Assembly (NCBI GenBank): GCA_019635715.1
Contig: JAHBYY010000043.1
Location: 1-38,913, forward strand
DNA: 38,913 nt
Direction: 5' to 3'
Origin: Rhizobiaceae bacterium
GTDB taxonomy: Bacteria > Pseudomonadota > Alphaproteobacteria > Rhizobiales > Rhizobiaceae
Made by a program: the position numbers and the translations under genes. This document shows positions 26,710 through 38,079 of this stretch, piece by piece (the first letter of the stretch is position 1; every line of letters starts with the position of its first letter). The notes under the pieces were generated by a model, which worked only from the letters and a program-made list of their open reading frames with translations, ran no database searches and was not told the origin of the DNA.

Positions 26710-26831
26710 CAGGGTGATCGCATATGGCGACGGGCTGGCGGGTCTGCAACTGCCGCCGCCGCCCCCTCCAGGGCGAGCCGCCGGCCTCGCCCTGGAGGGG
26801 GCGGGGGGTAGCACCAAATGCGATTGCCCTG
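26710..26831. mobile_element. Miniature inverted-repeat element, copy A
   Basis: 122 bases between the dimethylformamidase-like gene and the class III dehydrogenase. Terminal inverted repeats of 14 bases: CAGGGTGATCGCAT at the left and ATGCGATTGCCCTG at the right, differing at two positions. The centre is a perfect 16-base stem (26762-26777 with 26786-26801, arm CCCCCTCCAGGGCGAG) around an 8-base loop. Flanks CCTGCCGAG (26701-26709) and CCTCCTGAG (26832-26840) agree at 7 of 9 bases, as an aged target duplication would. No protein is encoded. Copy B lies at 37944-38058. Confidence 0.72.
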
Positions 26832-37822: not shown

Positions 37823-38079
37823 TTCCTCTCCCCGCCACTTGCGGGGAGAGGATGCCGGCAGGCAGGTGAGGGGCGGCGCCGGCGCTGCAACGATTGCGCT
37901 GCCCCTCATCCGTCACGCCGCGACACCTTCTCCCCGTGAACGGCAGGACTATCGCATATGGCGGTGGGCAGCGGGTCGGCGGCTGCCTACCCCAACCCCC
38001 ACCAGGGCGAGCCACCGGTCTCGCCCTGGTGGGGGTTGCCTCAAATGCGATTTCCCTCCGTGAACGGGGAGAAGGAAAA
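37823..38079. repeat. Composite intergenic repeat between DUF779 and ALDH genes
   Basis: Two hairpins of rhizobial repeat type. Hairpin 1: CTCTCCCCGC/GCGGGGAGAG at 37826-37850. Outer arms GGTGAGGGGC (37865-37874) and GCCCCTCATCC (37900-37910) then pair. Hairpin 2 was originally CCTTCTCCCC-GTGAAC-GGGGAGAAGG. Its left half is at 37926-37943 and its right half at 38058-38075, now split by the element at 37944-38058. No gene is seen in this stretch. Confidence 0.7.
37944..38058. mobile_element. Miniature inverted-repeat element, copy B, with 9-bp duplication
   Basis: 115 bases. The left end CAGGACTATCGCAT and right end ATGCGATTTCCCTC are inverted repeats with about four mismatches, clearly related to copy A. 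The inner stem pairs 37994-38011 with 38020-38037 (18 bases, arm AACCCCCACCAGGGCGAG). The element interrupts the loop of a hairpin repeat and is flanked by the perfect 9-base direct repeat CGTGAACGG (37935-37943 and 38059-38067). No protein is encoded, so a transposase elsewhere would be needed. Confidence 0.8.

Follow-up and report, generated by a model that had tools for sequence, protein, structure and literature searches.

The interrupted repeat and its locus

The window, that is the whole stretch of 38,913 nucleotides analysed here (contig JAHBYY010000043.1 of a Rhizobiaceae bacterium), contains a mosaic repeat that begins at position 37824. On one side of it is a gene for a DUF779 protein (Pfam 2e-44), on the other a gene for an aldehyde dehydrogenase (Pfam 4e-79). 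This host repeat carries two hairpins, the second of which is split by an insertion. The features are the following, with the basis of the reading in brackets:

37824..37943, + strand: host mosaic repeat, made of the first hairpin (37824-37852), the body and the left half of the insertion-bearing second hairpin (paralogue alignment)
37926..37935, + strand: left arm of the host hairpin split by the element, CCTTCTCCCC (direct reading, repeat search, uninterrupted copies)
37934..37943, + strand: left copy of the target-site duplication (TSD), CCGTGAACGG (direct reading, family statistics)
37944..38057, no strand: very probable MITE of 114 bp, without room for a transposase (sequence reading, relatives in its own and other genomes)
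37944..37960, + strand: left terminal inverted repeat CAGGACTATCGCATATG, one mismatch to the family repeat CAGGGCNATCGCATNTG
37993..38038, no strand: perfect inverted repeat of 19 bp inside the element, a core module common to several relatives
38042..38057, - strand: right terminal inverted repeat CAAATGCGATTTCCCT, two mismatches over 17 bases to the family repeat, the missing terminal G being one of them
38058..38067, + strand: right copy of the TSD, CCGTGAACGG (direct reading, family statistics)
38066..38075, + strand: right arm of the host hairpin split by the element, GGGGAGAAGG (direct reading, repeat search, uninterrupted copies)
26710..26831, no strand: another copy of the element, 122 bp long, whose flanks show no clean TSD (8/10 at best)

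The original prediction held that the element splits the host hairpin at its loop, and both direct reading and a repeat search bear this out. Uninterrupted, the hairpin (CTTCTCCCCGTGAACGGGGAGAAG) is present in six exact copies elsewhere in the same genome and, when up to two mismatches are allowed, in 12 places including these six. The half of the host repeat adjoining the element matches 33 times in this genome, a count that includes the query and its reverse match, and one uninterrupted paralogue (L341, G000:C54) aligns across the joined window flanks from the first hairpin to past the second. An orthologous empty site was not found in the three congeners searched, because the neighbouring DUF779 gene is absent from all of them. 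In the more distant genome G067, a similar uninterrupted hairpin is seen by eye at the corresponding place, but it counts as weak support, the local alignment of the joined window flanks scoring only 46. In a genome of another genus (G077, L189), the corresponding intergenic region holds different C-rich/G-rich palindromes, so that this spacer may collect repeats repeatedly.

An Rfam scan of the region returned weak matches only, far below gathering scores, and the 150-base unit composed of hairpin and insert had no match in the plasmid collection. The 122-bp copy at 26710-26831 has good ends. It overlaps a 474-aa ORF in its upstream part, ahead of the alcohol dehydrogenase domains, which start further in.

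Ends of the element and target-site duplication

A perfect 9-bp duplication and inverted-repeat ends had been predicted for the insertion. The direct repeat is indeed perfect, but the 9-base match (CGTGAACGG at 37935-37943 and 38059-38067) is part of a 10-bp duplication, CCGTGAACGG, and in the 51 copies analysed below this length alone is distinctive. The tenth base, a C on each side, is counted in the duplication because the last base of the element, which is G in the family, is absent from the window copy; the duplication being 10 bp, the element itself corresponds to 37944-38057, or 114 bp. As to the ends, CAGGACTATCGCATATG on the left and CAAATGCGATTTCCCT on the right both agree with the family repeat CAGGGCNATCGCATNTG; they are imperfect inverted repeats, and the right one lacks the terminal G.

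Copies of the element were paired by requiring two adjacent ends at most three mismatches from the pattern, separated by 60-420 bp, with flanking sequence of 40 bp available; single ends were dropped. This gave 51 copies, the window copy included, of which 22 are from its own genome and 29 from others. A second set consists of 30 filtered pairs from 80 fetched loci of named genomes, the scan having given at least 115 stretches. When lengths of 6-14 were compared in the 51 paired copies, only 10 bp stood out: mean identity at this length was 0.64, compared with 0.43 between flanks of different copies, and 16 of the 51 reached a match of at least 9/10 against 2.1% of cross-paired controls, while at lengths 6-9 and 11-14 at most two of the 51 copies reached the threshold. 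These values allow no slack at the edges. With two bases of edge slack, a TSD of at least 9/10 is present in 20 of the 51 (8 of the 22 copies from the same genome and 12 of the 29 others; 4.1% in cross-paired controls) and the remaining 31 are without one; the window copy then scores a 10/10 TSD with a 12-bp stem. The second set gave a TSD of at least 9/10 in 20 of 30, compared with 2.1% in the control. In L103, L116, L224 and L260 the flanks are inverted copies of each other and not direct duplicates, as would result if imperfect palindromes had been corrected; this reading was rejected, since 4 of 81 copies is near the cross-paired control of 2.5-2.8%.

A family of short elements with common ends

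The exact end pattern CAGGGCNATCGCATNTG is found 30 times in the genome of the window and 48 times in a congener (G003). It occurs in 10 of the 61 genomes scanned, that of the window included, and the reversed control pattern in none of the 61. BLAST with the element gave 39 matches in its own genome at E ≤0.1 among the 40 of 61 candidates that were scored, fragments and reverse matches of the inner palindrome included. The 51 paired copies fall mainly into two length classes, 12 measuring 110-143 bp and 37 measuring 179-219 bp, the last two being of 240 and 280 bp. Their inner palindromic cores vary. In L010, L033, L091 and L125, conserved ends enclose different inner modules (a GAGCCACCGGTCTC core, a CCCCTCCCC...GGGGAGGGG unit and a GGAATCCAGAG...CTCTGGATTCC unit), as if inner cores had been exchanged between these copies.

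The exact end pattern was also encountered in records named Nitrospirae, Acidobacteriaceae, Magnetococcales, cyanobacteria and Planctomycetota (L211-L290), where some pairs carry perfect 10-bp duplications (L256, L268, L274, L285). A pair of ends 3.6 kb apart in G036 was considered as a possible IS and discarded: its ORFs look by eye like ordinary metabolic genes, and each end starts a separate short repeat.

ISAs1 elements bearing the same or similar ends

The ends of the short elements lead to a transposase family. In L083, the same end adjoins the end of an ISAs1 transposase gene (NF033564, 4e-34). L145 and L146 are ISAs1 elements of 1127 bp with the same ends and a 10-bp duplication, in a target that is not in a hairpin. 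L232, from a Pseudomonadales MAG, is an element of 1228 bp with the same ends, a 370-aa transposase ORF (PF13808 4e-25, PF01609 1e-20) and a 10-bp duplication, in a target that looks palindromic by eye. Elements bearing these ends thus encode a transposase recognised by ISAs1-type models (NF033564, PF13808, PF01609), the window element itself encoding none. Members of the ISAs1 family generate TSDs of 8-10 bp, a range that includes the 10 bp of the window element's family. An ISAs1 match is present in 24 of 297 genomes of the bacterial family. The 85%-complete assembly that contains the window has no ISAs1 match, nor did a PF13808 search give one, and the window element is therefore taken to be non-autonomous, that is a MITE. 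It is short (114 bp) and without a transposase gene, members of its family end in inverted repeats and make a TSD whose length is fixed, and its ends are common to autonomous elements, all in other genomes (L083, L145, L146, L232 and, less exactly, ISRm21-type loci).

A search of plasmids for ISAs1 gave 336 places in 240 records, including elements annotated as ISRm21 of Sinorhizobium meliloti. Twelve plasmid loci of this type, only some of them annotated ISRm21, were fetched (three from Rhizobium and nine from S. meliloti). Like the window family, ISRm21 and its relatives in Sinorhizobium and Rhizobium have closely similar ends, CAGGGGAATCGCAT(A/T)TA and CATATGCGATAGCCCTG, in 10 of the 12 loci, and like the window element they display a 10-bp TSD, often at the axis of a C-rich/G-rich palindrome. 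They differ in size and coding capacity, since ISRm21-type elements are about 1127-1166 bp with a transposase gene whereas the window element is 114 bp without. The 10-bp duplication is perfect in 11 of the 12 loci; in the twelfth (L331), no left end was found within two mismatches. Seven of these 11 lie by eye in palindromes, which amounts to 6 of 10 distinct sites as two loci have identical flanks.

For two of the palindromic ISRm21-type sites, other strains have the empty site with an unbroken hairpin. Here 80% or more of the joined flanks is found at a single place in 33 records for one site and 39 for the other, with best identities of 99.7% and 100%; among the matches listed, 12 for each site, these are single pieces. 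The site of L333 is also uninterrupted in L335. The result was poor for the Rhizobium CIAT894 site, where only one record out of 53 spans 80% or more of the joined flanks, with 87.3% identity over positions 1-266 of 300.

In another genome, G133, all seven fetched ISAs1 flanks (7 of 17 candidates having been scored) are half-palindromes, as judged by eye on one side each. In G295, ISAs1-type ends of different sequence (CAGGGGAATCGCAGATA) adjoin half-palindromes in both loci fetched (L180, L181), again by eye, which suggests that the palindrome preference may extend beyond this ISAs1 subgroup.

Several findings support the proposal that the element had transposed into another repeat: the TSD, the paralogues of the host repeat that have no insert, the large family with the same ends, and the ISAs1 elements with closely similar ends, the same TSD length and sites that are empty in other strains.

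Palindromic targets

The stem centred on the target was measured after deletion of the element and one duplicate, sites 45-350 bp away serving as background. A centred stem of at least 6 bp is present in 19 of the 51 copies (37%), the background being 4.5%; in the second set the figures are 10 of 30 copies and 4.7% (binomial P 3e-13 and 7e-7, both approximate as the copies are related). Copies therefore lie preferentially at one point of a palindromic repeat, as do those of REP-targeting ISs. The whole genome, of 4.57 Mb, has no more than 19 exact palindromes of the form CTCCCC-N6-GGGGAG.

A C-rich/G-rich consensus is common to the target sites, in which the TSD starts with C on the left and finishes with G on the right. 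When the right halves were re-dealt among the 40 copies with a good duplication, the mean stem fell from 5.47 to 4.32 ± 0.20 and none of 500 re-deals reached the observed value, so the targets are palindromic one by one, past their shared consensus. Stems of at least 7 bp were likewise in excess (13 observed, compared with a mean of 6.4 and a highest value of 12, n=40). On the other hand, the observed numbers of stems of at least 6 bp (18 of 40 and 29 of 81) were each equalled by the highest of 500 re-deals, so that part of the pairing is due to the shared consensus.

The preference for palindromes, as anticipated, is supported statistically, but 32 of the 51 copies have no stem of at least 6 bp. 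Perfect TSDs are found in non-palindromic DNA (L027, L250, L262, L268, L274), which makes the palindrome a preference and not a requirement. The original prediction proposed to look in other copies for a 9-base duplication and a hairpin target: of the 51 copies, the window copy included, 20 have a 10-bp TSD of at least 9/10 and 19 a stem of at least 6 bp.

How the palindrome may be chosen

Very probably, the 114-bp element is a MITE derived from an IS of the ISAs1 family close to ISRm21; it would have been mobilised in trans and joined at the axis of the palindrome with a 10-bp stagger. An ISAs1 transposase, for which the 85%-complete assembly offered no source, would be supplied in trans and bind the 17-bp ends. 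It would then excise or copy the element, by a cut-and-paste or a copy-paste pathway, and join it to an intergenic C-rich/G-rich palindrome whose strands are cut 10 bp apart on either side of the dyad axis. Filling of the gaps would finally yield the 10-bp direct repeat. The dyad-symmetric target may be recognised by the symmetric transposase complex itself, and we consider recognition of duplex DNA more likely than that of an extruded cruciform.

A transposase with a preference for structure would instead attack a palindrome extruded as a cruciform, or the loop of a hairpin formed in single-stranded DNA such as the lagging strand. Targets that are palindromic one by one, the use of arms of differing sequence, and a TSD that covers the loop and a few stem bases on each side all agree with such an attack. 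A 10-bp direct duplication, however, is what staggered cutting of duplex DNA is expected to produce, perfect TSDs occur at non-palindromic targets, and the shared consensus could be used by a protein that reads sequence; we regard this reading as rather unlikely. Less probable still is an indirect attraction, in which a host protein bound to the palindrome, such as gyrase or IHF, or local supercoiling would draw the transposase. REP repeats do bind proteins such as gyrase or IHF in enterobacteria, yet the position of the insertions at the axis, together with their constant stagger of 10 bp, favours a direct reading of symmetry.

Random insertion followed by survival in intergenic palindromes only would fit the impression that many copies are intergenic; it is very improbable and strongly disfavoured by the local background, in which stems as long as those found at 37% of the targets are so scarce, and by the small number of exact palindromes in the genome. 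Finally, the 150-nt unit folds as a single continuous hairpin (DNA fold z of -10.9 against its own shuffles), but the idea that it is one long conserved palindromic repeat is refuted by the host hairpin standing alone in its six exact copies, by element copies in many differing surroundings and by a 10-bp match that is a property of matched flanks; nowhere was the whole unit seen conserved in many loci without empty sites.

Relation to known systems

The preferred reading, insertion of an ISAs1-derived MITE at a palindrome axis, has precedents among ISs. Tobes and Pareja (2006, PMC1525189) describe, in the passages concerned, ISs specific for palindromic repeats, with ISPsy8 at the symmetry axis of the REP hairpin and ISRm22 at the axis of palindromy, and Table 1 of that paper lists ISRm21 on pSymB with two of three copies associated with REPs. 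In the same passages, the REP-specific type 1 elements, with 100% of copies in the repeat, belong to families IS3, IS110 and IS4, and direct repeats are of 3 bp (ISPsy8), 6 bp (ISRm22) or absent (ISPa11). The window element shares with these REP-inserted ISs its location in palindromic repeats and differs from what is described there by its family and its 10-bp TSD. Neither does its family show the exclusive association of type 1 elements, given the copies without a stem and 4 of 11 intact ISRm21-type loci lying outside palindromes by eye. The term ISAs1 does not occur in the text of PMC1525189, and its passages on REP-inserted ISs contain no discussion of MITEs.

In the relevant part of PMC3733652, REP dimers located inside palindromes (GTAG/CGTC repeats) are reported. 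As in the window, small repeats are nested there in small palindromes; those repeats are of the REP type, unlike the window element with its ISAs1 ends, and the term ISAs1 does not occur in that text either. No ISAs1-derived MITE in palindromes was found in the open-access literature, as judged by titles and the beginnings of abstracts. Insertion of ISs into palindromic repeats has thus already been published, and ISAs1 together with its MITEs constitutes an addition.

It is conceivable, though doubtful, that transposases of this ISAs1 subgroup, together with their MITEs, read dyad symmetry (hairpin or cruciform) and not sequence, so that unrelated palindromic repeats would serve as a common landing pad across many bacterial groups and nested repeats would be built up. 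The present analysis ties a class of short repeats of Rhizobiales genomes to a named transposase family and provides an insertion rule for them, a 10-bp stagger often placed at a palindrome axis. With ISRm21 or another small IS, it also becomes possible to test directly whether sequence or structure guides the targeting of palindromes. Nesting of this kind is one route by which mosaic intergenic repeats grow.
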